In this document: piece after piece, positions 6,554 to 22,915 of the stretch
Layout of the letters: each line of letters begins with the position of its first letter
How positions within the stretch are numbered: position 1 is the stretch's first letter
Position numbers and translations under genes: made by a program
The notes under the pieces: model-generated
Told to the model about the DNA's origin: nothing
What the model saw: only the letters and a program-made list of their open reading frames with translations
The model's database searches: none
Source: Pseudoxanthomonas beigongshangi
Lineage (GTDB): Bacteria; Pseudomonadota; Gammaproteobacteria; Xanthomonadales; Xanthomonadaceae
Assembly: GCF_016820515.1 (NCBI RefSeq)
Contig: NZ_JADHDV010000011.1
Coordinates: 80,903 to 144,902 of the forward strand
DNA: 64,000 bases
Direction of reading: 5' to 3'

Positions 6554-7696
6554 ATGAGCCACGCCGCCATTCCGTTCGCTGCGCAGACCCTGCCGACGTG
6601 GAAGCGCGCGGTGCTGAAGGTCGGCAGCAGCCTGCTGGCCAACGAAGGCGAGGGGCTGAGCCCGAGGCATGCGCTCAATCTTGCGCAGTTCGTGTCCTCC
6701 AGCTTGCTGGTCGGCCGTGAAGTGGTGATCGTGTCCTCCGGCGCGGTCGCCGCCGGACGCGGGTTGCTGCATCGCAAGCCGGCCGCGGGCGTCGCGATGG
6801 CGGAACGGCAGGCGCTGGCCGCGCTCGGGCAGGCGCAGCTGATTGGCCTGTGGCAGCGCTTCTTCGAGCGTCCGGTCGCGCAGGTGCTGCTCACCCATGA
6901 CGATTTGCGCAACCGCCGGCGCTATCTCAACGCCCGCGCCACCCTGCAGGAACTGCTGGCGCTGGGCGCGTTGCCGGTCATCAACGAGAACGACACCGTG
7001 TCGGTGGACGAACTGAAGCTGGGCGACAACGACAACCTGGCCGCGGTGGTGGCGGCGCTGGTCGATGCGGATGCGCTGTTCATCGCCACCGACATCGACG
7101 GTTTCTATTCGGCCAACCCGCGCACGCATGCGGATGCGAGGCCCATACTCGACGTGGAAGCGTTGACGCCCGAATTCTTCGCCATGGCCGGTGGCGCCGG
7201 CAGCGGGGTCGGCACCGGCGGCATGCACACCAAGCTCGAAGCCGCGGCCAAGGCGGCGGCGGCCGGTATCGAAACCTTCCTGTTCAACGGTACCCGCGCC
7301 GAGACCCTGTCCGCGCTGGCGGCCGGGCGCCTGCACGGCACCCGCTTCCGACCGGCCCAGAACCGCCTTGCCGCGCGCAAGTACTGGCTGCGCAACGTAC
7401 CGGTGGAAACCGGCGCGATCCTGGTCGATGCCGGTGCGGCCGGCGCGGTGCGCGAGCGCGGTGCTTCGCTGCTGCCGGGGGGCGTGGTCGGCGCCGAAGG
7501 CGATTTCCGTCGCGGCGACATGGTCGAGGTGCGCCTGCGCGAGGGCGGTGACCAGTGCATCGCGCGCGGCGTGAGCCAGTACTCGGCCATCGACATCCGC
7601 CGCATCGCCCGCCGGCACTCGCGCGAGATCGAGGCCATACTCGGCTACAGCTACGGCGAGAACGTCGTGCACCGCGATGATCTGGTCGTGCTCTGA
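6554..7696 (+). CDS. proB: Glutamate 5-kinase
   Basis: A 380-residue enzyme that phosphorylates glutamate in the first step of proline synthesis. The amino-acid kinase domain covers residues about 15-260: [44 protein letters not shown] (glutamate and ATP site) and TDIDGFY. A C-terminal PUA domain occupies residues about 285-375 ([24 protein letters not shown]...). Full length for the PUA-containing form. It follows the YCII gene by 22 bp and is followed by proA after 37 bp, the standard pair. In characterised ProB proteins proline inhibits the kinase; this is family knowledge. Confidence 0.95.
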
Positions 7697-7733
7697 GCCG
7701 GCCATACGAATACCAGCAACGGGACCGAACACG

Positions 7734-8993
7734 ATGAGCACCATCCAGCAACAGGCCCTGCAATGCCGCGACGCCGCGCATTCCATCGCGCAGCTGTCCA
7801 GCGACGCCAAGAACACGCTGCTGCGGGCGATGGCCGACGCGCTGGAGGCCGACCGCGAAGCGATCCTGGCCGCCAACGCGCGCGACATGGAAGCCGCCGC
7901 CGCCAAGGGTATCACCGGCGCGATGCTGGATCGGCTGAAGCTCGACGACAAGCGCCTGGCCGGGATCGCATCCGCCGTGCGCGAAGTGGCGGATCTGCCG
8001 GATCCGGTCGGGCAGGTGACCCGCGAGGAAATCCGCCCCAACGGGATCCGCATCCGGCGCGTACGCGTGCCGCTCGGCGTGGTGGCGATGATCTACGAAG
8101 CGCGTCCCAACGTCACCGCGGACGCGGCCACGTTGTGCCTGAAGGCCGGCAACGGGGTGATCCTGCGCGGTGGCTCGGAGGCGATCCATTCCAACACCGC
8201 CATCGCGGCTGTGCTGCGCGGCGCGCTGCGTGCGCAGGGCCTGCCGGAGGCGGCGCTGACCCTGGTCGAGGATCTGCGGCGGGAGACCATGGTTGAACTG
8301 CTGCAACTCAACGACGTCATCGATCTGGCGATCCCGCGCGGTGGCGAAGGACTGATCCGGTTCGTCGCCGAACACGCGCGGGTGCCGGTGATCAAGCATT
8401 ACAAGGGCGTCTGCCATCTGTTCGTGGACGCCAGCGCGGATCCGCAACTGGCCCTGCGCCTGCTGCTCGACGGCAAGGCTTCCCGGCCGGGCGTGTGCAA
8501 TGCGCTGGAGACCCTGCTGGTGCACGGTGACATCGCCCCGGTCTTCCTGCCGCTGGCGGCGGAAGCGCTGCGTGGTCGCGGCGTGCAACTGCGTGCAGAC
8601 GAGGCGGCGCGGAACTGGATGCCGGAAGCGGCGGCGGCGACCGAGGACGACTACGCGGCCGAATTCCTCGATCTGATTCTCGCGGTGCGGGTGGTGGACG
8701 ACCTGGAACAGGCCATCGCGCATATCCGCCGGTTCGGTTCCGATCACACCGAGGTGATCGCCACCAACGACGCGGGCAACGCGGACCGGTTCGTGCAGGC
8801 GCTGCGTTCGGCGGTGGTGATGGTCAACGCCTCGTCACGCTTCAGCGACGGCGGCGAACTGGGGCTGGGCGCGGAAATCGGCATCTCGACCACCCGCCTG
8901 CACGCCTACGGCCCGATGGGCGCCGAGTCGCTGACGGTCGAACGCTTTGTCGTCCGCGGCGAAGGCCAGGTCCGCCACCCCGACCTGCTGTAG
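7734..8993 (+). CDS. proA: Glutamate-5-semialdehyde dehydrogenase (gamma-glutamyl phosphate reductase)
   Basis: A 419-residue aldehyde-dehydrogenase-superfamily enzyme that reduces glutamyl phosphate to the semialdehyde. Visible are [17 protein letters not shown] near residue 123, the long [15 protein letters not shown] nucleotide segment, the catalytic cysteine in [15 protein letters not shown] near residue 259, and a C-terminal [17 protein letters not shown]. The start is the ATG at 7734 (MSTIQQQAL); an in-frame upstream stretch overlaps proB and is not needed. Its TAG stop at 8991-8993 is part of the GTAG that begins a palindromic repeat right at the gene end, so the last bases of the gene are supplied by the repeat. 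Confidence 0.94.
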
Positions 8994-9098: not shown

Positions 9099-10382
9099 TC
9101 ACCACGTATCCTCCAGGAACCGCGGCTTGCAGGCCAGGTAGCCACCCACCAGCAGCACGCCAATGCACAGCACCAGGAAACCGAACGGCCACGACCAGCC
9201 GTGGGTATGCTCGTGCAGCAGGCCGAACATCAGCGGTCCCAGGCAGGACAGCGAATAGCCCACGCCCTGCATGAAGCCAGACAGCGACGCGGATCCGGCC
9301 GGTGTGCGCGTGCGCAGGTTGATCATCGTCAGCGCCAGCGGGAAGGTACTGGGTCCCATGCCCAGCAGCGCCACCCACAGGGCCGGCGCGGCCATCGGTG
9401 CCCACAGCAGGCCGGAAAAGGCGACCGCGTAGAATGCCGCGCACGCGAGCACGACCGTATAGGGATTGCGCATCCGCACCGCCAGCGCCGGCATCGTCAA
9501 CGACGCGACCAGGCCGAGCGCGGAAAACAGGCCGACCATCGTGCCGCCCAGCGCTTCGCTGCCGCCGGCCTCGATCAGCAACTTCGGCAACCAGGTGAAC
9601 ATCGAATACGTCACCAGCGAGGTCATGCCGAACATCAGCGCCATGCCCCAGGCGACCGGCGATCGCCAGACCCGGCCGCGTGCGGCGGGCGCGGACAGTT
9701 CCGGTGCCTCGTCGCCGCCGGTGACGGCCTGGTCATGCATTTGCGCCATCGGCGTGTCGTGGCGCCGTTCGATCCACAGCACGCCGATCCACGGCAGCGC
9801 CGCGGCCACCGCGAACAGTGACCACAGGCCCAGCGAAATCTGCCAGTTGCTGGCCGCCATCACCGGCACGGCCAGCAGGGCCGGCAGGATGGTGCCGGCT
9901 TGCAGGACGGTGATGTAGAGGGTGCTGACCGTGCCCACACGGTCGGCAAAGTAGCGCTTCACCAGCGGGGGCAGCACGATGTTGCCGATGCCCATGCCGG
10001 CCAGCGCCACCGCCGAGGCGGCAAGCAGCGCGCCGCTGCCACCGGCCAGGCTGCGCAGCAGCAGGCCGACGGCGGCCAGCGCCATCGCCAGCAGCGCGGT
10101 GCGTTCCAGGCCGATGCGGTGGGCGATGCCGGGCGTGAGCACGCCGAACAGCGCGAACGCGGCGGTCGGCAACATGCCGAACACGCCGGTCATGGTGGCG
10201 CCGAAACCGAACAGGTGGCCCAACTGGTCCAGCAGCGGCGTCAGCGAGGTCACCGCCGTGCGCAGGTTGAACGCGGACAGCACGATGCCGGCCAGGATCA
10301 GGCCACGTCCGGACCATAGCGGAACGGAGGAACCCGGTGGGGAGGGGGAAGTCGAGGGGGAGGCGTGTTGCGGGGATTTCAT
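9099..10382 (-). CDS. MFS transporter of the CynX/NimT (cyanate permease-like) type
   Basis: A major-facilitator membrane protein of about 427 residues with twelve predicted hydrophobic segments and a hydrophilic central loop near residues 195-225. Its start region (GLILAGIVLSAFNLRTAVTSLTPLLDQ) and GFGATMTGVFGMLPTAAFALFG closely follow the CynX/NimT family, whose members include cyanate and 2-nitroimidazole transporters; most are of unknown substrate. Start taken at the ATG at 10382 (MKSPQHASPSTS), giving a short soluble N-terminus; a second ATG 9 bases upstream is equally possible. It is convergent with proA and lies downstream of pgaD, 86 bp away, in the same direction, but nothing links it to the polysaccharide. 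Confidence 0.85.
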   Translation of the reverse strand: MKSPQHASPSTSPSPPGSSVPLWSGRGLILAGIVLSAFNLRTAVTSLTPLLDQLGHLFGFGATMTGVFGMLPTAAFALFGVLTPGIAHRIGLERTALLAMALAAVGLLLRSLAGGSGALLAASAVALAGMGIGNIVLPPLVKRYFADRVGTVSTLYITVLQAGTILPALLAVPVMAASNWQISLGLWSLFAVAAALPWIGVLWIERRHDTPMAQMHDQAVTGGDEAPELSAPAARGRVWRSPVAWGMALMFGMTSLVTYSMFTWLPKLLIEAGGSEALGGTMVGLFSALGLVASLTMPALAVRMRNPYTVVLACAAFYAVAFSGLLWAPMAAPALWVALLGMGPSTFPLALTMINLRTRTPAGSASLSGFMQGVGYSLSCLGPLMFGLLHEHTHGWSWPFGFLVLCIGVLLVGGYLACKPRFLEDTW

Positions 10383-10467
10383 CGCCCGCATTATCGCCGA
10401 TGCGCGCTGGCGACGGTGTGCCGCCAAGGCGACACACCGTCCCGGCAATCCCGTGCGAGGTCCGCGA

Positions 10468-10935
10468 TCAGCCGCCGGTGTTGGCGCTCAGGGCCGGACG
10501 GCTCATCGATTCGGGAATCGCGTGATCGTTCATGTGCAGCAGGGTGACCTTGGACTGGCCAAGCTGATTCGCCAGCGCCAGGCTAGCGCCCAGGCGTTCT
10601 GCCACCTCGTCCACGCCCACGTCCTCCTGCGGGCTGCGCCGATCCTGGGAAGCGAAGCGCCAGCGGTTGTACTCGGCCCAACCGATCAGTGCGAGTGCGC
10701 AGACCGCGGCCATCACCGGGATGGCGACGATCAGGAACGGTTCCACCTGGTGCTGGCGCGTGTACAGCTCGAAGAACGCCGTGCGCACGCCCAGCAGCCA
10801 CAGGATCAGGGTGACCAGTGGCAGCCACAGGTAGATGTACAACCCCCAGAAGGCGGCGGTGACGAAGCCCCACGCAGCGCGCTTCAGGCGCGGCTGGGCA
10901 TACGGTTTGCGGATGAGGCGGGAATCGTATTTCAT
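10468..10935 (-). CDS. pgaD: Poly-beta-1,6-GlcNAc synthase subunit PgaD
   Basis: A 155-residue inner-membrane protein with two transmembrane segments (about residues 22-48 and 66-90) followed by a cytoplasmic tail. Position, size and topology are those of PgaD, which with PgaC forms the c-di-GMP-activated PNAG synthase in E. coli. The sequence is poorly conserved in general, and the opening YDSRLIRKPYAQP and the aromatic first membrane helix (AFWGLYIYLWLPL) are the recognisable parts. Its start overlaps the pgaC stop by 4 bases. It is the last gene of the pgaABCD operon. Both PgaC and PgaD contact c-di-GMP in E. coli; whether this one does is inferred. Confidence 0.88.
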   Translation of the reverse strand: MKYDSRLIRKPYAQPRLKRAAWGFVTAAFWGLYIYLWLPLVTLILWLLGVRTAFFELYTRQHQVEPFLIVAIPVMAAVCALALIGWAEYNRWRFASQDRRSPQEDVGVDEVAERLGASLALANQLGQSKVTLLHMNDHAIPESMSRPALSANTGG

Positions 10936-12179
10936 CGGATACCTCGATCAGGACTGACCCACGTGGCGCGCTTGCCGCGCCGTTTCAACAAGGTCTTGGG
11001 AAGCGCGACCACGGTGGTGAACAGGCTCAGCAGCCAGTACGCCATCGGGTACCAGATCATCCAGAAGTAATTGCGGCCGACCTGGGTTTCGTAACGGCGG
11101 TCGATGATGATGCTGCTGGCGAACTGCGCCATGCAGACCATCGCCAGGATCACGCCGTGCCAAGAGGGCAGGATGGTGTGCACGTACAGCGCCGGCGGCA
11201 GGGCGATGAACTTGCCCAGCGCCCACAGCACGATGATCAGCAGCATCGTGTAGGCCCACAGCACACTGAGCAGGTACTCGAGCAGGACGCCCCACATCCG
11301 CCGCTTGCGCCAGCTGAGGAAGTCGCGGCCGTGGCGCAGCAGCACTTCCACGCCACCCTGCGCCCAGCGCAGGCGCTGCCGCCACAGGCCCTTCAGGGTC
11401 TCCGGCATCAGGATGAAGCACAGCGCGTTCGGCTCGTAGCGGATGTCCCAGTGATCCAGTTGCAGGCGCCAACTGATGTCGATGTCCTCGGTCACCATGT
11501 CATCGGCCCAGTAGCCGATACGGTGCAGGGCGGTGCGGCGGAACGCGCTGATCACGCCGGAGACGGTGAAGATGCGTCCATACACGCGCTGGGCGCGCTT
11601 GATCATGCCGATGATCGAGGAGAACTCGCCGACCTGCAGCCGGCCCAGCAGGGTCGAGCGGTTGCGGATGCGCGGGTTGCCGGTGACCGCGCCCACGCGC
11701 GGGCCGGAGGTCAGGTGCCAGACCATCCAGTGCGCGGCGTATTCGTCCAGCAGCGCATCGCCGTCGATGCAGACCAGGTATTCGGACTGCGCGGCGAGCG
11801 CGCCCATGCGCAGCGCGTTGGCCTTGCCCAGGTTGCGATCCAGGTGGATCACCCGCAGCCGGTCGTGGCGCTCGGCCATGGCATTGAGTGCGGCGGCGGT
11901 GTTGTCGCGGCTGCCGTCGTTGATCGCGATGACCTCGAAGTCGGGATACTTCTGCAGCAGCGCGCTGCCGATGGTTTCCTCCGCGTTGTCACCCTCGTTG
12001 TGGCAGGGGATGAGGATCGAAACCTTCGGGAAGGCGGCCAGCGGCGGCGGATCGGTGCGCTGGCGCGCGTGGCGCTCGCGACGGAAGTAGTAGTACAACC
12101 CGCCCGACATCCAGAAGAACGACATGATGATCGGATACAGGAAGGCGAATTCGAAAAGGACGGCGAGGATCTTGTCCAT
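10932..12179 (-). CDS. pgaC: Poly-beta-1,6-N-acetylglucosamine synthase PgaC
   Basis: A 415-residue GT2-family membrane glycosyltransferase that polymerises UDP-GlcNAc and feeds the chain across the inner membrane. N-terminal membrane segment (residues 5-30), then the catalytic core: VSILIPCHNEGDN, AINDGSRDNT, CIDGDALLDEYA (DxD), TEDIDISWRL (general base) and RQRLRWAQGG (the Q/RxxRW motif). Three or more C-terminal membrane segments follow. All catalytic motifs are intact. It begins 2 bp after pgaB and overlaps pgaD by 4 bases. A second, related synthase is encoded divergently at 16643, so the genome has at least two PgaC-like enzymes at this locus. Confidence 0.95.
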   Translation of the reverse strand: MDKILAVLFEFAFLYPIIMSFFWMSGGLYYYFRRERHARQRTDPPPLAAFPKVSILIPCHNEGDNAEETIGSALLQKYPDFEVIAINDGSRDNTAAALNAMAERHDRLRVIHLDRNLGKANALRMGALAAQSEYLVCIDGDALLDEYAAHWMVWHLTSGPRVGAVTGNPRIRNRSTLLGRLQVGEFSSIIGMIKRAQRVYGRIFTVSGVISAFRRTALHRIGYWADDMVTEDIDISWRLQLDHWDIRYEPNALCFILMPETLKGLWRQRLRWAQGGVEVLLRHGRDFLSWRKRRMWGVLLEYLLSVLWAYTMLLIIVLWALGKFIALPPALYVHTILPSWHGVILAMVCMAQFASSIIIDRRYETQVGRNYFWMIWYPMAYWLLSLFTTVVALPKTLLKRRGKRATWVSPDRGIR

Positions 12180-12181
12180 GA

Positions 12182-14050
12182 TCAGCGCTCCTCGTACGGG
12201 AAGCCACGGGCGGAGATGCCGGCACGGGCATCGGGCATGCGCGGCAGGTCGGCGATGAAGTCATCCGGGTACCAGCCCAGATGGCGAACGCCCTGGGCCT
12301 GCAGGCGACGGATGAGGGCATTGATGCGCGGGCCGGGAATCGGCTTGCGGGTATTCCAGTCGACGGTCTGCAGTTCGAACAGGGTCTGCGACAGTTGCGG
12401 GTCCTGCTTGCGTACCGCCGCCACCAGTTCGTCCAGCCACTTCTCCGGACGCCGGCTGCCTTCCATCCACGGCATCGCCATCAGCGCGGTGTGATCGTAG
12501 GCGCGGTTGAACAGATCCAGCCGCTGCGCGAACCAGGCCTGGCTCTGCGGTTCCAGCACGGGGCGCGCGTACATGTTGCGCACGGTCTTGAGCTTGGGAC
12601 GCCAGCGCTCGGCGGCGTTCCTCAGTTCCAGGGTGAAGTCGATCAGCGCCTGCGTGCGCGCCTCGGTGTTGCCGGGAGCGAGCGTGGCCAGTTCGGTGTC
12701 GCGCAGGTAGGCATCGTCATGGAACAGGAGTCCTTCCATGTACGAGGCGACCGCCAGGTCCTCGTAGATGCCGGCGATGGTCCGGCGCACGTCCGGACGG
12801 GTGAAGTCCAGCCGCGGGATGCCGTCGGCCTCGCGGCTGGCGATGGCCATGCCGGGCACCTGCTGCGGGAGCTTGTAGGCCATCACCGGCAGCCAGGCGA
12901 ACACCTTGACATGGGCGCGGGTGTACAGCTGCCAGGCGACCCGGTTGTACAGATCCGCGCGTACCGGCATGAAGCGGTTGGGGAAGTACAGCGCGTCGGC
13001 GGCACCATCGCCATCCGGGTCGGCGAAGGCCTGCAGGAACACATGCGAGGGGCCGATGCGGTTGACGCGCTCGATCAGCAGGTCCAGGTTGCGCGCCTGC
13101 TGTTGCGGGTCAGGGTCGTAGACCGCGTCCAGGTCGATCTGCAGGGCACGGATGCCTTCGGCTTCCGGATCGTGGCGGAGCTCATAGGCCAGTTCGGTGA
13201 CGGTCGGATTGTCCATCACCAGCAGGCGGGCCAGGCCGTGCAGGTCCGCGGTCACCGGCGTGCTGGGGCCTTCCAGATCGAAGGACACCGGCATGCCCAG
13301 CGATTCGGCGATGTCGTTGCTCACGCTGCTGTAGGCGGCGTAGGGCCACACGATGGCGCGCGGCGCCTGGCCCAGGTGCCGGCGGATCAGATCGCTGCTG
13401 GTCGCCAGATCCGAGCGCACGCGCTCGCGGTACGCGGCTTCGGTTTCATAACGCCCGGCTGCCGGATCGTAGATGCGGGTGATCGCGGCCGGGGTCTGGT
13501 TGCCCTGCGGGTTGGACTGCACGCCTTTGTGCAGGGCGTTGGTGTGGCTGGCGACTTCGACCAGCCCGCTGGCCTGCATCTCCCGCAGTTGATCCCAGGT
13601 GACGAAATCGTCGCGGGTGAACATGCGCGGACCGTAGTCGATCTCCTGGCCGGCGGGCATGTCGACCCAGCCGGTGATCACCGCCGCCAGCGCCGGGTAG
13701 TTGTAGGCGCGCAGCAGCGGGAAGGCATGCGTGTACAGGCTGCGCAGGCCGTCATCGAAGGTCAGCAGGACCGGCTTGGCCGGCAGCGGCTTGCCGCCGC
13801 GGGAGGCTTCCACCACCTGCGACAGCGACACCGGGTGGTAGCCGTGCCCGGCCAGCCAGTCCAGGTGCGCGGCGAAGTTCTGGGTGCTGACCGCGTAGGC
13901 GTCGGCGTCGCCTTTCTTGGCGACATCGTCGCGGATGTCGTGATAGCTGAGCACCAGCAGCGGCTCGGCGGCACGCGCGGCGAGCATCGGCGCGAACAGC
14001 GCCAGTGCGCACAGGGCCAGCAGCAACCAGGTTGGACGTACGGACTTCAT
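12182..14050 (-). CDS. pgaB: Poly-beta-1,6-GlcNAc N-deacetylase PgaB
   Basis: About 622 residues. A cleavable signal peptide (ending near ARAAEP) leads to a CE4 polysaccharide deacetylase domain: LSYHDIRDD, LLTFDDGLRSLYTHAFPLL (metal Asp pair) and a SHTNALHKG histidine motif. The C-terminal half is the PgaB GHL13 hydrolase-like domain (DLDAVYDPDPQQQARNLDLL, AWLPVMAYKLP, LFHDDAYLRD). PgaB partially deacetylates PNAG in the periplasm so that it can be exported. Unlike E. coli PgaB there is no clear lipobox cysteine. Three consecutive ATGs (14056, 14053, 14050) overlap the pgaA stop; 14050 is favoured because GGGGAG then sits 7 bases upstream. Confidence 0.93.
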   Translation of the reverse strand: MKSVRPTWLLLALCALALFAPMLAARAAEPLLVLSYHDIRDDVAKKGDADAYAVSTQNFAAHLDWLAGHGYHPVSLSQVVEASRGGKPLPAKPVLLTFDDGLRSLYTHAFPLLRAYNYPALAAVITGWVDMPAGQEIDYGPRMFTRDDFVTWDQLREMQASGLVEVASHTNALHKGVQSNPQGNQTPAAITRIYDPAAGRYETEAAYRERVRSDLATSSDLIRRHLGQAPRAIVWPYAAYSSVSNDIAESLGMPVSFDLEGPSTPVTADLHGLARLLVMDNPTVTELAYELRHDPEAEGIRALQIDLDAVYDPDPQQQARNLDLLIERVNRIGPSHVFLQAFADPDGDGAADALYFPNRFMPVRADLYNRVAWQLYTRAHVKVFAWLPVMAYKLPQQVPGMAIASREADGIPRLDFTRPDVRRTIAGIYEDLAVASYMEGLLFHDDAYLRDTELATLAPGNTEARTQALIDFTLELRNAAERWRPKLKTVRNMYARPVLEPQSQAWFAQRLDLFNRAYDHTALMAMPWMEGSRRPEKWLDELVAAVRKQDPQLSQTLFELQTVDWNTRKPIPGPRINALIRRLQAQGVRHLGWYPDDFIADLPRMPDARAGISARGFPYEER

Positions 14051-14052
14051 CA

Positions 14053-16128
14053 TCATTCTCCCCACCGCAGTTCGGCATCGAAGCCGAAGCGTTCTTCACG
14101 GACCCCGTCGTAGACCGGGCGCGACCAGCTGACCCCGTAGGTCAGCACCCGGCCGAGCGCGAATTTCCATTCGTGCTCGTAGCGCAGCGCCGGCACCCAG
14201 TGGGTGCCGAAGCCTTCCTGCCAGTAGCGGCCGGCGGTGGCGGTGAGGCGATGGCGGAAATGGCGCTCGTATTCGCGCCACACCAGGTGATCCGCGCGCA
14301 GGCCCAGTTCCAGCGAACCGTCACGCGAGGGATTGAAGTACGGTGTGTCCCGGCGGCTGCCGCGGCTGCCGTAGAGACCGGCCAGGCCGTCGAGCAGGAA
14401 GTAGGGACGGGTCCACAGGCGCTGTTCGGCATTGAGGTTGAGCGCGGTGCGGCGGTTGCCGTCCTCGTAACGCCAATGGGTGAGCCCGCCACGGAATTCA
14501 GTGCGCTCGTTGCGCTCGTACACCAGGTTGATCGCGGCGCTGTCGGCGGTGATGCCGGCGTCACGCGCCTGCAGCGAGGCGTCGGCGTCATTCCGGCGCA
14601 GCGAAAGCTGGCCGTCGAGGGTATCGCTGAAGCGCCAGCCCACGTCCAGCGACACGCCGGTGCCGCCGACGCGGTCACTGGCGTGGTAGACGCCCAGGTG
14701 GGTGTCCAGGCGGTCGTAGGCGTAGCGCACGCCGACGCCCTGCCGGCGATGATGGATGCGATCCCGATCGAAGTCCGCCCAGCGGTCGTCGGCCACGGCG
14801 GTTAGGCGCCAGCGGTCATCGAACAGCGGCGATTGCACTTCCACGCCATATTCGCCGTCGCGGTTGCCGAACGGTGTGTTGCCGCTGCCGCCGTTGCTGC
14901 GCGCGCCGGCCACGTAGGCGCGCCATTGCCAGCCGCGATGATTGCGCCAGAGTTCGTCCATGCGCTGTACGTTCGGCTGGTCGCCGTATTCCCTGACCAG
15001 CAGATCGTGCAGATCGCGGGCCTGGTCGTCGCGGCGCAGGGTGACCAGCGCCTCGACCTGGCCGACGCGCGCATTGACGTCGCGTTCGTCCAGCGTGGAG
15101 GCCATGCGGAAGCGCTCCAGCGCCCGCTCCGGCCAGCCGCGCATCATGTAGACCTGGCCGAGCGAGGTCTGCATGCCGGCGTTGTTGGGCGCGATGCCCA
15201 GCATGGCGGTGATGTCGCGTTCGGCGCTGGGCAGGTCCTCGGAGAAGGCGCGCAGCATCGCCAGGGTGCTGTCCGTGTCGGCGCGGCGCCAGTTCTGGCT
15301 GCCCTGGCGCGCGCCCGGCGCGTACAGCCAGGCCGGCTGGGTCTCGCGATAGGCTTCCAGGCCGCGGATGGCGGTGGTGGGCCGCTCGCTTTCCAGATAG
15401 GCGTAGGCCAGTTGCATGCGCACGTCGCTGTTGTCCGGATCGGCCTTGAGCGCGGCTTCCAGCACCGGCGCGGCCTCGAACGGACGCTTGAGCGCCATGA
15501 ACGAATCGCCCACCGCGGGTAGCGCGTAGGCGGGCACCGCGAGTCCGGCGGTGTCGTTCAAGGCCTGGTATTCGTCGACCACCTGCTGGTGGCGTCCCAG
15601 CTTCGACAGCAGGATCAGCCGGTCATAACGGATGCGGGTCGGCAAGGTTGGATCGTTCGCCGGACTCCGTCGCAGATATTCCTCGATGGCGCTGTCGGCC
15701 ACACGCGCCTCGGCCAGGCGGTTGCGCTCGTTTTCCGGGTAGGCCTGCGACCACAGGATCAACCGGGCCAGGTAGTTGGCTTCGAACTGCTCGCGCTGCG
15801 CGGCATCGAACAGCTCGGGGCGGGCGCGGTACATCGCCCAGGCCTGGTAGCTGTTGCCGACATCGCCCAGGGTCAGGGTACGCAGGCGGTACAGCTCGGG
15901 ATCGTCCGGGCGCTGGGCCTGCAGGCGTTCGAATATCGCCAGGGCGTCCAGCCAGCGCGACTCGTCGCGCAGGCGGGCGGCCTGCGCAAGCGAGGCCTCG
16001 TGCCCCGGATCGTTGCCGGCGCCGGCCGGCGGGAAGGTGGGAGTGGTGGCGGGTGCCGCTGCCAGAGCCGGCAGGCCGGTCGCACCCATGGCGCATGCAA
16101 GCGCCCAAGACAATGTGGTTCTTTTCAA
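14053..16128 (-). CDS. pgaA: Poly-beta-1,6-GlcNAc export porin PgaA, TTG start
   Basis: A 691-residue outer-membrane exporter. A signal peptide (MKRTTLSWALACAMGATG) is followed by TPR repeats (about residues 40-350, e.g. LPTRIRYDRLILLSKLGRH, NAGMQTSLGQVYMMRGWPERA) and a C-terminal beta-barrel (about residues 385-691) rich in alternating aromatic strands. TPRs bind deacetylated PNAG and the barrel lets it out. The start is a TTG at 16128: an in-frame TAG lies seven codons upstream with no ATG or GTG between, and the next ATG (16089) would delete most of the signal peptide; GGCGGAA precedes the TTG. A TTG start implies modest translation. First gene of pgaABCD; see the 16129-16642 control region. 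Confidence 0.9.
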   Translation of the reverse strand: MKRTTLSWALACAMGATGLPALAAAPATTPTFPPAGAGNDPGHEASLAQAARLRDESRWLDALAIFERLQAQRPDDPELYRLRTLTLGDVGNSYQAWAMYRARPELFDAAQREQFEANYLARLILWSQAYPENERNRLAEARVADSAIEEYLRRSPANDPTLPTRIRYDRLILLSKLGRHQQVVDEYQALNDTAGLAVPAYALPAVGDSFMALKRPFEAAPVLEAALKADPDNSDVRMQLAYAYLESERPTTAIRGLEAYRETQPAWLYAPGARQGSQNWRRADTDSTLAMLRAFSEDLPSAERDITAMLGIAPNNAGMQTSLGQVYMMRGWPERALERFRMASTLDERDVNARVGQVEALVTLRRDDQARDLHDLLVREYGDQPNVQRMDELWRNHRGWQWRAYVAGARSNGGSGNTPFGNRDGEYGVEVQSPLFDDRWRLTAVADDRWADFDRDRIHHRRQGVGVRYAYDRLDTHLGVYHASDRVGGTGVSLDVGWRFSDTLDGQLSLRRNDADASLQARDAGITADSAAINLVYERNERTEFRGGLTHWRYEDGNRRTALNLNAEQRLWTRPYFLLDGLAGLYGSRGSRRDTPYFNPSRDGSLELGLRADHLVWREYERHFRHRLTATAGRYWQEGFGTHWVPALRYEHEWKFALGRVLTYGVSWSRPVYDGVREERFGFDAELRWGE

Positions 16129-16194
16129 AACGTTCCGCCCCTGTCGCTAACAGTTGGGTCCCCCGGGGGAGACCGTGCTGGTGGTCCTTGGATT

Positions 16195-16210
16195 TGTGAT
16201 GAGTCGCACA
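16195..16210. promoter_or_regulatory. CRP/Clp-like palindrome 1 (or leader hairpin)
   Basis: TGTGATGAGTCGCACA fits TGTGA-N6-TCACA with one mismatch (G for T). It is extended to perfect 9-bp arms GGATTTGTG and CACAAATCC at 16190-16215. In the pgaA mRNA leader the same palindrome would form a 9-bp hairpin with an 8-base loop, so it may act on DNA, RNA or both. It lies 67-82 bp upstream of the pgaA start codon. Confidence 0.5.
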
Positions 16211-16285
16211 AATCCTGCCAAGTCTAGGAAGCGGTACCCAAAGGGCGCCCAAACGGGACGATTCTGTTAATAATCCATAAATTTA

Positions 16286-16301
16286 TGTGATGTAACTCAC
16301 T
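16286..16301. promoter_or_regulatory. CRP/Clp-like palindrome 2
   Basis: TGTGATGTAACTCACT fits the CRP/Clp consensus TGTGA-N6-TCACA at nine of ten core positions. It sits in the A/T-rich island, 158-173 bp upstream of pgaA. Relative to a possible minus-strand -10 (CAGAAT, 16261-16266) its centre is about 40 bp upstream of the expected start point, which is the class II activator position. Clp is the xanthomonad CRP homologue, reported to lose DNA binding with c-di-GMP. Confidence 0.6.
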
Positions 16302-16517
16302 AAAAATCACGATCAATCGGCCTTGCTTGCCCGGTTTCCCGCCGAAAACACGAGTCGGGGTGGGGTTTGTGAGCGATACGTGACAGGTTCCGCGTGAGGC
16401 TCGAAAGCATCCCGAAAAGCGGAACTCCCGGGGCGGGCGGGCCTGAGCCACCGGAAATGCGGCCTTCGGAGCCATCAGGTGGGCAGGACCAAAAGTGACC
16501 CTTTGCGTCACAAAACG

Positions 16518-16531
16518 GTGATTTGAATCAC
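16518..16531. promoter_or_regulatory. CRP/Clp-like palindrome 3
   Basis: GTGATTTGAATCAC is a perfect inverted repeat apart from its central two bases, and has the CRP/Clp core GTGA-N6-TCAC; the outer bases (G instead of T/A) are off-consensus. It lies about 60 bp upstream of the sigma-54 -24 element, roughly -85 to -100 from the predicted start point, a usual place for an enhancer-binding or co-regulator site. Confidence 0.5.
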
Positions 16532-16590
16532 GAAACTGTAACGAAGGCTCGGAGAGGCGATGAGAGGTCACATTGCCCGGCCCGCCGGGT

Positions 16591-16606
16591 TGGCACGCGA
16601 ATTGCT
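16591..16606 (+). promoter_or_regulatory. Sigma-54 (RpoN) promoter upstream of the second synthase gene
   Basis: TGGCACGCGAATTGCT matches the sigma-54 consensus TGGCACG-N4-TTGCW exactly, with GG at 16592-16593 and GC at 16604-16605 separated by the required 10 bases. The predicted start point is near 16617, 26 bases ahead of the ATG at 16643. Transcription from such promoters needs an AAA+ enhancer-binding protein; which one is unknown. Confidence 0.8.
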
Positions 16607-16642
16607 CGATGACAGGCACATCCGCTCCGTGTCCACGCCGCC

Positions 16643-18064
16643 ATGTACGACGCCCATTCGCCTTCAGACGCCCCTCCGTGGGACGGTGCCCGTACCCGGC
16701 CGCCGGAGCCGCCCGTGCCCGCGCCGGTTCCTGTGCCGGAATTCCGTCGCTTCTATGTGCCGATCCGCCTCAAGTACGTGCTGGTGCTGGCCGTCGCGCT
16801 GGCGTGGGCCGGACTGAGCGTCAAGCTGTCCCAGCCCTGGCTGCATGAATTGTCCGCCCACGTGGGCTTCGCCCTGGCGCTGGTCGTGATCATGTTCATC
16901 GCCTACGTGCCGGGCTTCATGAACGCGTTCCTGATCGGCTCCATCCTGGCCGACCGCCGTCCGCGCCTGCGCAGGTTCGAACGCCTGCCCGATGTCTGCG
17001 TACTGGTCGCCTGCTACAACGAGGCGGAGAACATCGCCGACACCCTCACCAGCCTGTCGCGCCAGGATTACCCGGGCGAAATCGAAGTGGTCGTGATCGA
17101 CGATGGTTCCATCGACGACAGCGCCGCGATCGCCCGCGCGACCGCGGCCGACCAGGCGCGCCCCGGCCTGCGCATCCGCGTGCTGAACCAGCCGAAGAAC
17201 GGCGGCAAGTCCAAGGCCCTCAATCGCGGCCTGGCGGAAACCCGGCAGGCGCTGGTGGTCACCGTCGACGGCGATTCCTATCTGCGTCCGGACGCGCTGC
17301 GCAAGCTGGTGGAACGGTTCCTGTCGGATCCGGCCGGCACCGTGGCGGTGGCCGGCGCTGTGCTGGTGCGCAACTCGCGCGAGAACTGGCTGACCCGCAG
17401 CCAGGAATGGGATTACTTCCACGGCATCGCCGCGGTCAAGCGCATGCAGAGCATGTATCACGGCACGCTGGTCGCGCAGGGCGCGTTTTCGCTGTACACC
17501 CGCGAGGCGCTCGAACAGGCCAACGGCTGGCCGGAGTGCGTGGGCGAGGACATCGTGCTGTCGTGGGCGCTGCTGAAGACCGGCGCGCGCATCGGCTACT
17601 GCGAGGAAGCCTGCCTGTTCACCCGCGTGCCGGAGAAGCTCGGCCAGTTCTCCAAGCAGCGCCAGCGCTGGTCACGTGGCCTGATGGAAGCTTTCGCTCG
17701 CCACGGCAGCCTGCTGTTCAAGCCGCGCATGACCACCTTGTTCATCTGGTGGAACCTGCTGTTCCTGCCGCTGGATCTGGTCTACACGCTGGCCTTCATT
17801 CCCGGCTTGATCCTGGCGCTGTTCGGCTTTTACTGGATCGCCGGTATCATGACGCTGCTGGTACTGCCGCTGGCGGCGTTGTGGAACCTGATCATCTTCC
17901 GCGTGCAGTCGAAGATGTTCAAAAGCCAGGATCTGCGCGTACGCCGCAACATCAGCGGATTCCTGTTCTACACCCTGGCCTACACCATGATCCTGCAGCC
18001 GGTCTGCGTCCTGGGGTATGCCGCCGAAATCCTGCGCCTGCGCAAGACCTGGGGGACCAAATGA
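16643..18064 (+). CDS. Second PgaC-like membrane glycosyltransferase (GT2)
   Basis: A 473-residue processive GT2 synthase. A proline-rich N-terminus is followed by two membrane segments (about residues 48-98), the catalytic domain (VCVLVACYNEAEN, VVIDDGSIDDS, VTVDGDSYLRPD, VGEDIVLSWALL, KQRQRWSRG) and C-terminal membrane segments (about residues 365-465). All GT2 motifs are intact. It resembles PgaC but has no pgaB or pgaD partner; the next gene is an outer-membrane barrel overlapping it by 4 bases. The Xanthomonas xagB product is a PgaC-like synthase in a Clp-regulated biofilm operon and may be the counterpart, though I cannot confirm orthology. Expression from the sigma-54 promoter at 16591 is likely. 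The polymer made is unknown. Confidence 0.85.
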   Translation: MYDAHSPSDAPPWDGARTRPPEPPVPAPVPVPEFRRFYVPIRLKYVLVLAVALAWAGLSVKLSQPWLHELSAHVGFALALVVIMFIAYVPGFMNAFLIGSILADRRPRLRRFERLPDVCVLVACYNEAENIADTLTSLSRQDYPGEIEVVVIDDGSIDDSAAIARATAADQARPGLRIRVLNQPKNGGKSKALNRGLAETRQALVVTVDGDSYLRPDALRKLVERFLSDPAGTVAVAGAVLVRNSRENWLTRSQEWDYFHGIAAVKRMQSMYHGTLVAQGAFSLYTREALEQANGWPECVGEDIVLSWALLKTGARIGYCEEACLFTRVPEKLGQFSKQRQRWSRGLMEAFARHGSLLFKPRMTTLFIWWNLLFLPLDLVYTLAFIPGLILALFGFYWIAGIMTLLVLPLAALWNLIIFRVQSKMFKSQDLRVRRNISGFLFYTLAYTMILQPVCVLGYAAEILRLRKTWGTK

Positions 18065-18993
18065 GAAAGTGTGCCGTCGCCGCCGCCCTGGGATGGGCGC
18101 TGGCGATTCCCGTGTTGTCCGCCCATGCCGCCGAGGATGCGCCGGCCGCGCGCCCGGCGCTGCGGACGGACTTCTGGATGGGCTCCGATGCGGACGACAA
18201 CGAAACCCGCAAGCTGGCACTGGGCTGGGACATCCAGCACCGCGATATCGAGCACTGGTGGGGCGTGAAGGTCGAACGCGCGCGCTTCTCCGGACGCGAC
18301 TGGTCCGAATCCGAGAACCGCGCCTACCTGAGTGGCGCCGGCAGCCTGGGCAAGGACTGGCGCTGGGACGGCGACATCGGCAGCAACGGCGACGACCTGC
18401 TGGGCCGCGCCTCGATCCACAGCACCGATCCCTGGCGGAAGGAAATCTTCGTCGAGCGCGAAGTCCTGGAAACCCGACGCGGCGTGCGCGAGGGCTGGGT
18501 GCAGACCTTCGCCGGCGCGGCCATCGACATGCCCTTCAGCGATCGCTGGTCCGCCAGCCTGGTCGCCGGCGTGCAGGACTTCGGCACCGGCGACAACCTG
18601 CGCACCCACCTGCGCGGCAACCTGGTCTATGCGTTCGCGCCGGAGTACGGCCTGAGCGCGCAGCTGCGCACCCGCTACTACCGCAACAGCGAAGCCTTCG
18701 AGGCCGACTACTATTCGCCCCCTTGGTACGGCGAAGCGCTCGGCGTGCTGGCCTGGCGCCGCCACATCGGCGGCTACCAGTGGAGCGCGCGCGCCGGCTG
18801 GGGCCGCCAGCGCAGTTCCGAGGAGGGCTGGAAGCGCGCCCGCCTGGCCGAGTTCGGCGTGGAGACCCCGCGCTGGAAGGACGCCTGGCTGCGCCTGGAC
18901 GCCGGCTACACCGATACTCCGGTACTGACCGATACCGGCACCGGCAGCTACGCCTACCGCTACGTGCGCCTGCAGGCGTTCGTGGTGTTCTGA
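18061..18993 (+). CDS. Outer-membrane beta-barrel protein paired with the second synthase
   Basis: A 310-residue exported protein. A signal peptide of about 25 residues (MRKCAVAAALGWALAIPVLSA, ending HAAED) precedes a run of alternating polar/aromatic strands with Gly/Tyr/Trp-rich turns, and the chain ends in a phenylalanine (QAFVVF), the classic C-terminal signal for outer-membrane assembly. Length suits a 12- to 16-strand barrel with no TPR part. It looks like a stand-alone version of the PgaA barrel. The start overlaps the glycosyltransferase stop (ATGA), so the two are made together, and export of the polymer made by that synthase is the obvious role. I do not recognise a named family. 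Confidence 0.75.
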   Translation: MRKCAVAAALGWALAIPVLSAHAAEDAPAARPALRTDFWMGSDADDNETRKLALGWDIQHRDIEHWWGVKVERARFSGRDWSESENRAYLSGAGSLGKDWRWDGDIGSNGDDLLGRASIHSTDPWRKEIFVEREVLETRRGVREGWVQTFAGAAIDMPFSDRWSASLVAGVQDFGTGDNLRTHLRGNLVYAFAPEYGLSAQLRTRYYRNSEAFEADYYSPPWYGEALGVLAWRRHIGGYQWSARAGWGRQRSSEEGWKRARLAEFGVETPRWKDAWLRLDAGYTDTPVLTDTGTGSYAYRYVRLQAFVVF

Positions 18994-19126: not shown

Positions 19127-19203
<77 letters not shown>

Positions 19204-19329: not shown

Positions 19330-20724
19330 TTGATCAAGCCACGCACGCCGCCAGGAGTGATGGAACTGCTGCCGCGCGAGCAGATCGCGTTCCAGCGCAT
19401 GCTGGACACCATCCGCCGCAACTACGAGCGCTTCGGGTTCCTGCCGGTGGAAACCCCGGTGTTCGAGCTCTCGGAAACCCTGCTGACCAAATCTGGCGGC
19501 GAGACCGAGCGCCAGGTCTATTTCGTGCAGTCCACCGGCGCGCTGGCCAAGACCGAGGCGGGTTCCGCCGAGGGCCTGCCGGAACTGGCGATGCGCTTCG
19601 ACCTGACTGTGCCGCTGGCCCGCTACGTGGCCGAGCACGAGCACGAACTGACCTTCCCGTTCCGGCGCTACCAGATCCAGCGGGTGTACCGGGGCGAGCG
19701 TGCCCAGCGCGGCCGGTTCCGCGAGTTCTACCAGTGCGATATCGACGTCATCGGCAAGGACGCGCTCAGCATCCGCTTCGACGCCGAGATTCTGGCGGTC
19801 ATCCACGCGGTCTTCAGTGATCTGGGCATCGGCAAGTTCACCATCCAGCTCAACAACCGCAAGCTGATGCGCGGCTTCTTCGAGGCCCAGGGCATCGCCG
19901 ACGGCGAACGCCAGGCGCTGGTGCTGCGCGAGGTCGACAAGCTCGACAAGCGCGGCGCCGACTACGTGCGCGAGACCCTGCAAGGTCCGGATTTCAACGT
20001 GCCGGCCGAAGCGGTCGCGCGGATTCTCGAATTCGTCGCCGTGCGCTCGACCAGCCATGCCGACGCATTGGCCCGCCTGGAAGCGCTGGGGCAGGGCAAC
20101 GAGACACTGGCCCGGGGCGTGGCCGAGCTGCGCGAAGTGCTGGAACTGGTGCATGCGCTGGGCGTTCCCGAGAGCGACTATTGCCTCAACTTCTCGATTG
20201 CACGCGGCCTGGATTACTACACCGGCACCGTCTACGAGACCCAGTTGGACGACTACATCCAGATCGGCTCGATCTGCTCGGGCGGCCGCTACGAGGATCT
20301 GGCCAGCCACTACACCAAGTCGAAGTTGCCCGGCGTGGGCATCTCCATCGGCCTGACCCGCCTGTTCTGGCAGTTGCGCGAGGCCGGACTGATCGCCGGC
20401 AGCGACGAGAGCAGCGTGCAGGCGATGGTGGCGCTGATGGACGATGACGCGCTGGCCGATTCGCTGGACATCGCCCGTCGCCTGCGCGTCGCCGGCATCA
20501 ATACCGAAGTGCAGATGGAAGCGCGCAAGTTGGCCAAGCAATTCCAGTACGCCTCGCGCGCGGGCATCCGGTTCGTGGTGCTGGCCGGCGAGGACGAACG
20601 CGCCCGCGGCATGGTCACGGTGAAGGATCTGGTCCGCGAACAGCAGTTCGAGGTCAAGCGCGAGGAACTGGCCAGCAGCCTGAAGGTGGAGCTGGAGCAG
20701 GCCCGCGCGCTCGCGGGCCGCTGA
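19330..20724 (+). CDS. hisS: Histidyl-tRNA synthetase, TTG start
   Basis: A 464-residue class II aminoacyl-tRNA synthetase charging tRNA-His. Motif 1 region near residue 35 ([13 protein letters not shown]), motif 2 in [27 protein letters not shown] (residues 115-141), the HisA-type signature [12 protein letters not shown] near residue 296, motif 3 in [15 protein letters not shown] near residue 338, and a C-terminal anticodon-binding domain ([14 protein letters not shown]...). The start is a TTG at 19330 supported by GGAG seven bases upstream; [18 protein letters not shown] is the expected N-terminus. It is not in the his operon but lies about 2.4 kb upstream of it. A palindromic repeat array starts 13 bp after its stop. 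Confidence 0.94.
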
Positions 20725-20737
20725 AAGCACGCGAACG

Positions 20738-21113
20738 GTAGAGCGGAGCTTGCTCCGCTGCTTTTCGCGCGTGGTTTGAGTCCGCGCAGCCGAGCGAGCT
20801 CGGCTCTACATGGGTAGAGCGGAGCTCGCTCCGCTGCTTTTTCGCACGTGGTTTGAGTCCGCGCAGCCGAGCAAGCTCGGCTCTACATGGGTAGAGCGGA
20901 GCTTGCTCCGCTGCTTTTCGCACGTGGTTTGAGTCCGCGGAGCCGAGCGAGCTCGGCTCTACGTGGGTAGAGCGGAGCTCGCTCCGCTGCTTTTCGCGCG
21001 TGGCTTGAGTCCGCGGAGCCGAGCGAGCTCGGCTCTACATGGGTAGAGCGGAGCTTGCTCCGCTGCTTTTCGCGCATGGTTGAGTCCGCGGAGCCGTGCA
21101 AGCCCGGCTCTAC
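20738..21113. repeat. Tandem array of five GTAG (SMAG-like) palindromic units
   Basis: Five head-to-tail units of 76-77 bp start at 20738, 20814, 20891, 20967 and 21043. Each begins GTAGAGCGGAGC(T/C)... and ends GCTCGGCTCTAC, and contains two hairpins (AGCGGAGCTTGCTCCGCT and AGCCGAGCGAGCTCGGCT types) joined by a nearly constant GCTTTTCGCGCGTGGTTTGA linker. Units differ by single bases, mostly compensated within hairpins (TT/TC and GCGAGC/GCAAGC loops), and the fifth is more worn. This is a BIME-like array of REP elements. It fills the whole hisS to diguanylate cyclase gap, and its last unit provides the TAG stop of the cyclase gene at 21110-21112. No REP-associated transposase gene is in the window. 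Confidence 0.93.
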
Positions 21114-22915
21114 AGCGTGCGCACGCAATCGCGGCCTTCGGCCTTGGCGGTATAGAGCGCCTGGTCGGCGACCTGCAGGGCGGAATCGATGCTGTTCTTG
21201 TCGATGTCCACGCAATGCACGCCGATGCTGGCGGAGATGGGAATGTCCAGATCCCCGCTGCGGCAGGGCCGATCGCGCAGGCGCTGGCGCAGTTCCTCGG
21301 CCACATTGCTGGCCTCGTCCAGATCCATGTCGGGCAGGGCGGCGATGAATTCCTCGCCACCGAAGCGCGCAACCAGCGCGCCGTAAGGCCGCAGCGTTTC
21401 GGCCATCGTGTTGGAAGTCCAGCGCAGGCAGTCGTCGCCGACCAGATGGCCGTAGGTATCGTTGATGCGCTTGAAGTGGTCCAGATCGATCATCAGCAGC
21501 GAGATGGGCTGCTGGCTGTTGCGCGCCTGCGAGAGCAGGTGTTCGAAGGCTTCGCGGAAGTGGGTGCGATTGTAGAGTTCGGTCAGCCCGTCCAACTGGC
21601 TGAACTCGCGCAGGCGCAGGTGCGCGGCTTCCAGTTGCTCCAGCGCGCTGCGCAACTCGCCGGTGCGTTGTTCGACCTTGATTTCCAACTGGTCGCGCGA
21701 TTCGCGCACGATCCGCTCGTTCTCGTTGCGCAGCGAGGCGTAGCGGTAGCCCAGCGCGACCGACAGCAGCAGCATTTCCAGGGCCGAACCGATCTGCACG
21801 CTGTACTCGGTGACGAAGTTCTTGGGCAGCGCGCCGAAGGCGACCATCGCGACCATCGCGATGCCCGCCAGGAACATCGACCAGGCCAGCAGGAACAGCT
21901 TGGCCGGCTTGTAGCCGCTGCGCATGGCAACCACCGCCTCGACCGCGATCCAGGCCACGCTCAGGATCACCGCGACCACCGCCAACTGGGTGGATAGCCG
22001 GATGGGAATCCAGGTGGTGGCGACGCTCAGCACCACGAACAGCGCGATCATGCCCAGGCCGATGCGGTCACCCAGCGGCCAGCGCCGGGCCAGGCCTAGG
22101 AAATTGCGTGCGAACTGTTGCATGCCGATCTGCGCCAGGCAGATCGAAAGCGGTACGGCCTTGTCCGCCAGCCACGGTGAATGCGGCCACAGGTACTCGA
22201 AGCCCAATCCGTACAAGGTGAACAGCACCAGCCCGAACGCGCTGATATGGAACATGTACCAGAAGTAGCTGGCGTCGCGCAGGGTCAGCCACAACACCAG
22301 GTTGTAGGTGAACAGCGCCAGCAGGATGCCGTAGTACACACCCATCGCGAACTGTGCGTCGCGCGAGAGTTCGGCGAAGGCGGTTGGCGTGTACAGGGCC
22401 AGCGGCACCTGCATCGAGCTCTGGCTTTCCACCCGGACGAACAGATCCGCCGGCTGTCCGGGCGGCAGGTCAAGCTGGAAGTTCGGATGCCGGTAGCGCA
22501 CGCTGCGCTGCTCGAAATGCAGGTGATCGCCACCGGCCTGGTGGAACAACTGGCCGTCGGGGTAGCGCACGTACACGTCCAGCCGATCGCTCAGCGCGTA
22601 CTGCTGGACCAGCAGCCAGCGCGGTTCCTGCAGGTTGCGATTGAGCAGGTTGACGTGGAACCAGTAGGCGCCGGGCTGGAAACCGAAGGATGCATCGTCG
22701 CCTGGCAATGGCCGGAAGCGTCCCGCCCGCAGGCTGGTCTCGATCGCCCGGATATCGGCCCGGCCATCGCTGTCGTGGAAATAGGTCGTATGGGGACCCA
22801 GGGCATGGGTGGCCGCATCGCCTGACATCACCAGTGGTGCCTGCGCCTGCGCGAGCGCGCAGAACAGCATCAGCGCGGCCAGCAGCCAGCGAAGTCCGCG
22901 GATGGCTTCCCTCAT
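21110..22915 (-). CDS. 7TM-DISM membrane diguanylate cyclase
   Basis: A 601-residue membrane sensor. A signal peptide (residues 1-25) leads to a periplasmic 7TMR-DISMED2 carbohydrate-binding-like domain (about 40-165), seven transmembrane helices of the 7TMR-DISM type (about 185-385), a coiled coil (residues 385-440, NENERIVRESRDQLEIKVEQ) and a GGDEF domain with an active RFGGEEF near residue 517. It should make c-di-GMP in response to a periplasmic ligand. The product-binding inhibitory site (RxxD upstream of the signature) reads RPYG, so feedback inhibition is probably lost. It is encoded convergently with hisS; its TAG stop lies in the last repeat unit. Nearby pga genes are a plausible but unproven target. 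Confidence 0.92.
   Translation of the reverse strand: MREAIRGLRWLLAALMLFCALAQAQAPLVMSGDAATHALGPHTTYFHDSDGRADIRAIETSLRAGRFRPLPGDDASFGFQPGAYWFHVNLLNRNLQEPRWLLVQQYALSDRLDVYVRYPDGQLFHQAGGDHLHFEQRSVRYRHPNFQLDLPPGQPADLFVRVESQSSMQVPLALYTPTAFAELSRDAQFAMGVYYGILLALFTYNLVLWLTLRDASYFWYMFHISAFGLVLFTLYGLGFEYLWPHSPWLADKAVPLSICLAQIGMQQFARNFLGLARRWPLGDRIGLGMIALFVVLSVATTWIPIRLSTQLAVVAVILSVAWIAVEAVVAMRSGYKPAKLFLLAWSMFLAGIAMVAMVAFGALPKNFVTEYSVQIGSALEMLLLSVALGYRYASLRNENERIVRESRDQLEIKVEQRTGELRSALEQLEAAHLRLREFSQLDGLTELYNRTHFREAFEHLLSQARNSQQPISLLMIDLDHFKRINDTYGHLVGDDCLRWTSNTMAETLRPYGALVARFGGEEFIAALPDMDLDEASNVAEELRQRLRDRPCRSGDLDIPISASIGVHCVDIDKNSIDSALQVADQALYTAKAEGRDCVRTL

Follow-up and report, generated by a model that had tools for sequence, protein, structure and literature searches.

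The 64,000-nucleotide stretch of Pseudoxanthomonas beigongshangi DNA analysed here (hereafter the window, with positions counted from its first letter) carries a complete pgaABCD set for poly-N-acetylglucosamine (PNAG) and, divergent from it, a two-gene unit, hereafter the pair, that encodes a glycosyltransferase family 2 (GT2) polysaccharide synthase and a predicted outer-membrane barrel lacking tetratricopeptide repeats (TPRs). The pga genes occupy 10468-16128 on the minus strand, and the pair lies to their right, preceded by a predicted sigma-54 promoter element:

16643..18064, plus strand: first gene of the pair, for a GT2 polysaccharide synthase of 473 aa (PF13641, 9.9e-33; TIGR03937, 169 bits, below cut-off; synthase motifs)
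18061..18993, plus strand: second gene of the pair, for a TPR-less predicted outer-membrane barrel of 310 aa (hydrophobic segment at the N terminus; C-terminal Phe)
16591..16606, plus strand: predicted sigma-54 (-24/-12) promoter element upstream of the pair (TGGCACG-CGAA-TTGCT, 12/12 match; conserved in relatives)
14053..16128, minus strand: pgaA (TIGR03939, 422 bits, cut-off 367; TPRs and a PF21197 barrel)
12182..14065, minus strand: pgaB (TIGR03938, 786 bits, cut-off 322)
10932..12179, minus strand: pgaC (TIGR03937, 649 bits, cut-off 422)
10468..10935, minus strand: pgaD (TIGR03940, 134 bits, cut-off 31)

The stop codon of the GT2 gene overlaps the start of the barrel gene as ATGA, and the unit ends after these two genes, being followed by tRNA-Pro and hisS, with neither a deacetylase nor a PgaD in it. 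The first-pass annotation had described just such an arrangement, a complete pgaABCD beside a divergent GT2 and a 310-residue barrel ending in Phe, without deacetylase, TPR or PgaD; all four Pga proteins score above their NCBIfam cut-offs, and the coordinates and Pfam scan of the pair agree with the description.

The GT2 protein carries the motifs of a processive inner-membrane synthase (DDGS, VDGD, GED, and QRQRW, a QxxRW motif), and its Pfam matches are of the transferase type only, with no cyclic di-GMP (c-di-GMP)-binding domain among them. It scores 169.3 bits against the PgaC/IcaA model TIGR03937, for which the cut-off is 422.3, and 121 bits against the NodC model; because it falls so far under the PgaC cut-off, it is a relative of PgaC and not a PgaC. 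In a tree of 31 GT2 proteins, 24 proteins of the pair type and their relatives split from seven of the PgaC type with 100/100 support, subject to a long-branch warning. Relatives closer than PgaC (∼30% identity) occur on plasmid records of Acidithiobacillus, Cupriavidus, and Peptoclostridium (45-50%) and, in pieces, on a Sphingomonas plasmid (54%). On the plasmid of Sphingomonas daechungensis (L093) a copy of the pair is broken into several frames and apparently decayed, and on the 6.5-kb plasmid p5 of Acidithiobacillus sp. (L094) a piece of a C39 peptidase lies upstream of a GT2 relative of 50% identity, with a broken-looking frame downstream.

The barrel belongs to no Pfam family and has no TPR. 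Its predicted fold is a 16-strand barrel of the PgaA/BcsC type, that is, an outer-membrane secretin barrel as used in synthase-dependent secretion, and in structural alignment with VIA-align the three polysaccharide secretins outrank every other barrel by a wide margin. No periplasmic TPR scaffold was found by Pfam in either protein of the pair, the search being confined to this unit and not extended to the rest of the genome. By a rough parity estimate, the charge of the barrel lumen is nearly neutral (+19/-15).

The two genes travel together. The barrel is found in 21 of 198 Xanthomonadaceae genomes, from 11 of 54 genera, and GT2 orthologs (E below 1e-200) in 20 of the 198, namely the same genomes minus G063, where the locus is a fragment; the next GT2 match falls at 3.7e-48. 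The GT2 gene adjoins the barrel gene at 21 of 21 loci, with the locus truncated in G103 and a fragment in G063. A survey across the phylum returned the barrel in three of 398 genomes, the P. beigongshangi genome included, and in the two distant genomes an overlapping GT2 gene lies upstream. Only first-look candidates were scored in these surveys (per genome, at most 11 for the barrel among the 198, eight for GT2, and five in the phylum survey), so the counts may be low. A weak barrel match in G040 (E 6.8e-5 over 63 residues) was dropped, as its region (L030) matched none of ten window proteins. Together with the predicted PgaA/BcsC-type fold, this co-occurrence backs the initial description of the pair as a second synthase-export unit. 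Of the named relatives found, Pseudoxanthomonas sp. z9 is the closest, with a 97% identical barrel.

The sequence TGGCACG-N4-TTGCT, noted at the outset as an exact sigma-54 consensus, is indeed present at 16591-16606. The pattern TGGCAYG-N4-TTGCW occurs without mismatch twice in the 4.23-Mb genome, the second copy falling within a 655-codon open frame, and the reversed control pattern does not occur; the score of the element is reached by one of 300 dinucleotide shuffles of the 120 bp upstream of the pair. Looser matches are no evidence, because with up to two mismatches the window holds 19 where 14.8 are expected. Stronger evidence for the putative element than these chance estimates comes from its conservation among relatives. 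All 13 upstream regions of a first set score at least 10/12, with 0-4 of 300 shuffles as good in eleven of them; 10 of 16 further regions reach 10/12, nine of those with the GG/GC core (scored without shuffles), and both of two more keep the element. In total, 24 of the 31 regions (the scan left out L091, L092, and L096) combine a GG/GC core with a match of at least 10/12, as expected of a sigma-54 consensus. Within Pseudoxanthomonas it is retained at each of the 16 loci whose upstream region could be read, including the four where the pair sits elsewhere in the genome (L025, L085, L183, and L184). Conservation of the pair together with its promoter, set beforehand as the test of the proposal, thus extends through the genus and into several near genera. 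In Pseudoxanthomonas sp. z9 (L014/L087) the junction is gone over a span corresponding to about 16151-16921 of the window, including both the pair-side and the pga-side element and the first 81 GT2 codons; with the sequence between pgaA and the GT2 gene missing from about 16151 onward, this strain would have lost both predicted promoters, through either a real deletion or an assembly fault.

The pga side carries a related signal:

16205..16220, minus strand: weak sigma-54-like element upstream of pgaA (9/12; 15/300 shuffles equal)

Ten of 12 pgaA upstream regions (a scan that left out G005 and G103) contain a GG/GC-core element scoring 10-11/12, matched by 1-14 of 300 shuffles; among these, L139 and L140 belong to a single genus and are almost copies of each other. 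Nine of the ten share one block of alignment columns with the window copy, typically TGGCA-N3-TTTTTGC in the genus, while the flanks diverge, that of L143 lies elsewhere, and L169 has no sigma-54-like element upstream of pgaA. Judged by these sequence elements, pga and the pair both look sigma-54-driven in this lineage, a point missing from the first-pass annotation, which argues against separate switching by sigma factor and weakens the earlier suggestion that the two are turned on under different conditions. Exopolysaccharide genes have been linked to sigma-54 before (PMC3162934).

The region contains further candidate regulatory sites:

16495..16511: palindrome GTGAC-N7-GTCAC, a possible activator site lying ∼96 bp before the -24/-12 element
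16518..16531: CRP/Clp-like half-palindrome GTGA-N6-TCAC (8/10 to TGTGA-N6-TCACA; 5/200 simple shuffles equal)
16286..16301: CRP/Clp-like site on the pgaA side (9/10 to TGTGA-N6-TCACA, a score without shuffle control)

Counterparts of the palindrome (GTGAC-N-GTCA, in a similar place) are present in nine of 13 upstream regions, and the CRP/Clp-like site at 16518..16531 is variably retained in relatives. The genome encodes two sigma-54 proteins and seven proteins with strong activator-domain matches, FleQ- and NtrC-type proteins among them. A FleQ-type protein (PF06490) was considered as the activator of the pair and rejected, since the FleQ box, which we take to be GTCA-N6-TGAC, reads as the reverse of this palindrome. 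A regulon built on the palindrome was likewise rejected, the tandem pattern giving one match in the genome against one for the control. DNA folding of 16490-16560 is nothing special (z -0.62).

The surroundings of the two units are formed by the following features, giving the order argC ... proB, proA, MFS, pgaD, pgaC, pgaB, pgaA, GT2, barrel, tRNA-Pro(CGG), hisS, in which the MFS and pga genes point leftward:

7677..8993, plus strand: proA, left border of the slot (TIGR00407, above cut-off)
9099..10448, minus strand: major facilitator superfamily (MFS) transporter between proA and pgaD (PF07690; CynX/NimT subfamily below cut-off)
19127..19203, minus strand: tRNA-Pro(CGG), right border of the slot (ARAGORN)
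19330..20724, plus strand: hisS, right flank (TIGR00442, above cut-off)

Among 38 Pseudoxanthomonas genomes, 11 have pgaA, 17 have the pair, three have both (that of the window, G012, and G103), and 13 have neither. Of the 14 pair-only genomes, 10 carry the pair beside proA, five of these also with hisS opposite within the stretch read, and four carry it elsewhere. The eight pga-only genomes have pga near proA in seven cases, six of them flanked by hisS at the far end, and elsewhere in one. Seven of the 13 genomes with neither system could be read from proA to hisS and are empty of both, three were read on the proA side only, and three were not read; in the empty slots proA and hisS lie 350 bp apart in L174, and an MFS gene intervenes in L173. 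The tRNA-Pro(CGG) gene is present in all 27 loci scanned, which were chosen for holding hisS, and in G012 proA is on a different contig from the rest. Outside Pseudoxanthomonas, pga adjoins proA or hisS in two genera (L139, L140, and L143). Mutual exclusion of pair and pga is not claimed as a statistical rule, because three genomes with both, 14 with the pair only, eight with pga only, and 13 with neither give a Fisher p of 0.28. The pair thus resembles a cassette in its own right, whose usual site in Pseudoxanthomonas is beside proA, often with tRNA-Pro(CGG) and hisS at the far end, where other species have pgaABCD; the clade of the window has the two head to head. Since 14 of the 17 pair-bearing Pseudoxanthomonas genomes lack pgaA, the reading of the pair as part of pga was rejected, and the proposal of one switchable module is not supported. 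As for the control region said to be shared, the divergent junction exists, and slot occupancy makes it the meeting of two cassettes at a common address in one clade.

Immediately past hisS, a diguanylate cyclase with a 7TMR-DISM domain (21110-22915, minus strand) is kept in many relatives, including some whose slot has neither pga nor the pair. Between hisS and the cyclase, open frames at about 20883-21100 on the minus strand translate repeated ARLRGLKPRAKSSGASSALP-like units, which suggests short repeated DNA.

The pair resembles several known systems and differs from each. With pgaABCD it shares a GT2 synthase and a 16-strand PgaA-type barrel, yet it lacks the TPRs, the PgaB deacetylase, and PgaD, and its GT2 forms a clade of its own. 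NfrB-NfrA, the N4 glycan receptor pathway of E. coli, is likewise described as an exopolysaccharide core of a GT2 and a 16-strand barrel pore, but NfrA is reported to have TPRs and NfrB an MshEN-like c-di-GMP-binding domain (PMC8669472), neither of which Pfam finds in the pair. Wzp porins are presented as PgaA-barrel-like export porins without TPRs; they have 18 predicted strands and serve outer-membrane polysaccharide export (OPX) pathways (PMC9603273), whereas the barrel of the pair has 16 predicted strands and sits beside a synthase. Compared by description, xagABCD of Xanthomonas is also a GT2-based biofilm locus coexisting with pgaABCD, of four genes as against two (PMC3609779; PMC3528676). 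X. oryzae pv. oryzicola is reported to have both pgaABCD and xagABCD, both are up in an rpfG mutant, and the biofilm of that mutant needs xag (with gum) and not pga (PMC3609779), a precedent for two such systems in one cell. Variants of pga without pgaB and pgaD are described from environmental bacteria; these are pga rearrangements whose lost genes may be too divergent to detect, and the part of the report consulted makes no mention of a TPR-less barrel (PMC7112194). Among the titles and abstract openings of the top literature matches, a pair of synthase and TPR-less barrel is not described.

The pair is real and conserved, and it is best read as a variant of synthase-dependent polysaccharide secretion, not as a separate kind. 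We think it somewhat probable that it is a minimal synthase-dependent machine that makes and exports a second matrix polymer under its own predicted sigma-54 promoter. Sigma-54 and an activator, which may bind the palindrome at 16495-16511, would switch on the pair from a transcription start predicted near 16617. The GT2 would then polymerise a GlcNAc-type sugar into a homopolymer and pass the chain across the inner membrane; its release over the outer membrane would fall to the barrel, with no TPR arm, deacetylase, or PgaD. In PNAG secretion the TPR domain of PgaA is reported to bind the polymer and tune PgaB (PMC9384988); since the pair has neither TPR nor PgaB, its polymer would leave without deacetylation. 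Gene content, motifs, conservation, co-occurrence, and slot occupancy are observed directly and the barrel fold is predicted; the sugar, the export, the promoter activity, and a biofilm role are our inferences.

Several observations weigh against this reading. A separate TPR protein may be encoded elsewhere in the genome. Sharing a barrel fold is in itself no proof of function, and the secretins do not stand out by Foldseek E-value alone, with OpdQ ranking fourth and PgaA seventh. The structure model of the GT2 is poor (predicted local distance difference test, pLDDT, 56.7); it was left out of the fold search, and the membrane helices are known from this low-confidence model only. A 45% GT2 relative on a plasmid of the Firmicute Peptoclostridium acidaminophilum (L095) has no barrel among its annotated neighbours. 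Seven of 31 regions lack an intact -24/-12 element (absent in six loci from other genera, its GC lost in one), and the matches in L026, L029, and L027 are weaker, with 15, 13, and 4 of 300 shuffles equal. The tandem palindrome, at up to one mismatch, is at chance by count alone, and the activator-domain model also matches 14 of 14 control genomes.

An unlikely alternative is that the pair belongs to an ordinary synthase-dependent system with scattered genes, its scaffold (a TPR protein or lipoprotein) and possibly an enzyme for modification being encoded elsewhere. Gram-negative systems of this type are reported usually to include a TPR component and modifying enzymes (PMC7112194), and the Acidithiobacillus relative has beside its GT2 a 339-aa open frame with a very weak TPR match (E 0.06); yet the unit in the window contains no such gene, and the neighbourhoods of the pair, queried with window proteins only, differ. 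It is quite unlikely that the product of the GT2 is a surface glycan, short or linked to lipid, and that the barrel, instead of exporting it, serves as a porin or envelope enzyme. General porins are among the best Foldseek matches, and the near-neutral lumen departs from the anionic lumen given for PgaA (PMC9603273), but a neutral lumen would fit an unmodified polymer too, and the VIA-align ranking favours the secretins. That the -24/-12 elements are unused and other promoters, for example under a Clp-type regulator, drive the units is distinctly unlikely: CRP/Clp-like sites occur in both upstream regions and Clp is described as a repressor of xagA in X. campestris (PMC3528676), but every readable locus of the genus keeps a 10-12/12 element with its core amid divergent flanks, also outside the slot. 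Very improbable is an extra PNAG synthase feeding the adjacent PgaB/PgaA, for which adjacency in three genomes and PgaC as the nearest named family speak, but which the pgaA-less genomes, the missing PgaD, the low PgaC score, and the separate clade oppose.

With somewhat less than even confidence, the reading of the pair as a minimal exporter may be extended to the claim that a synthase and a TPR-free secretin barrel suffice for unmodified-polymer export in several proteobacterial classes, and that Pseudoxanthomonas has a tRNA-Pro-anchored slot where two sigma-54-driven polysaccharide cassettes replace or adjoin each other. If two proteins suffice, the strict needs of synthase-dependent export are separated from the additions of TPR scaffold and deacetylase, and the passage of a polymer across the periplasm with no TPR arm becomes a mechanistic question that a two-gene system makes testable. 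A slot for interchangeable cassettes would show how close relatives swap types of biofilm matrix.

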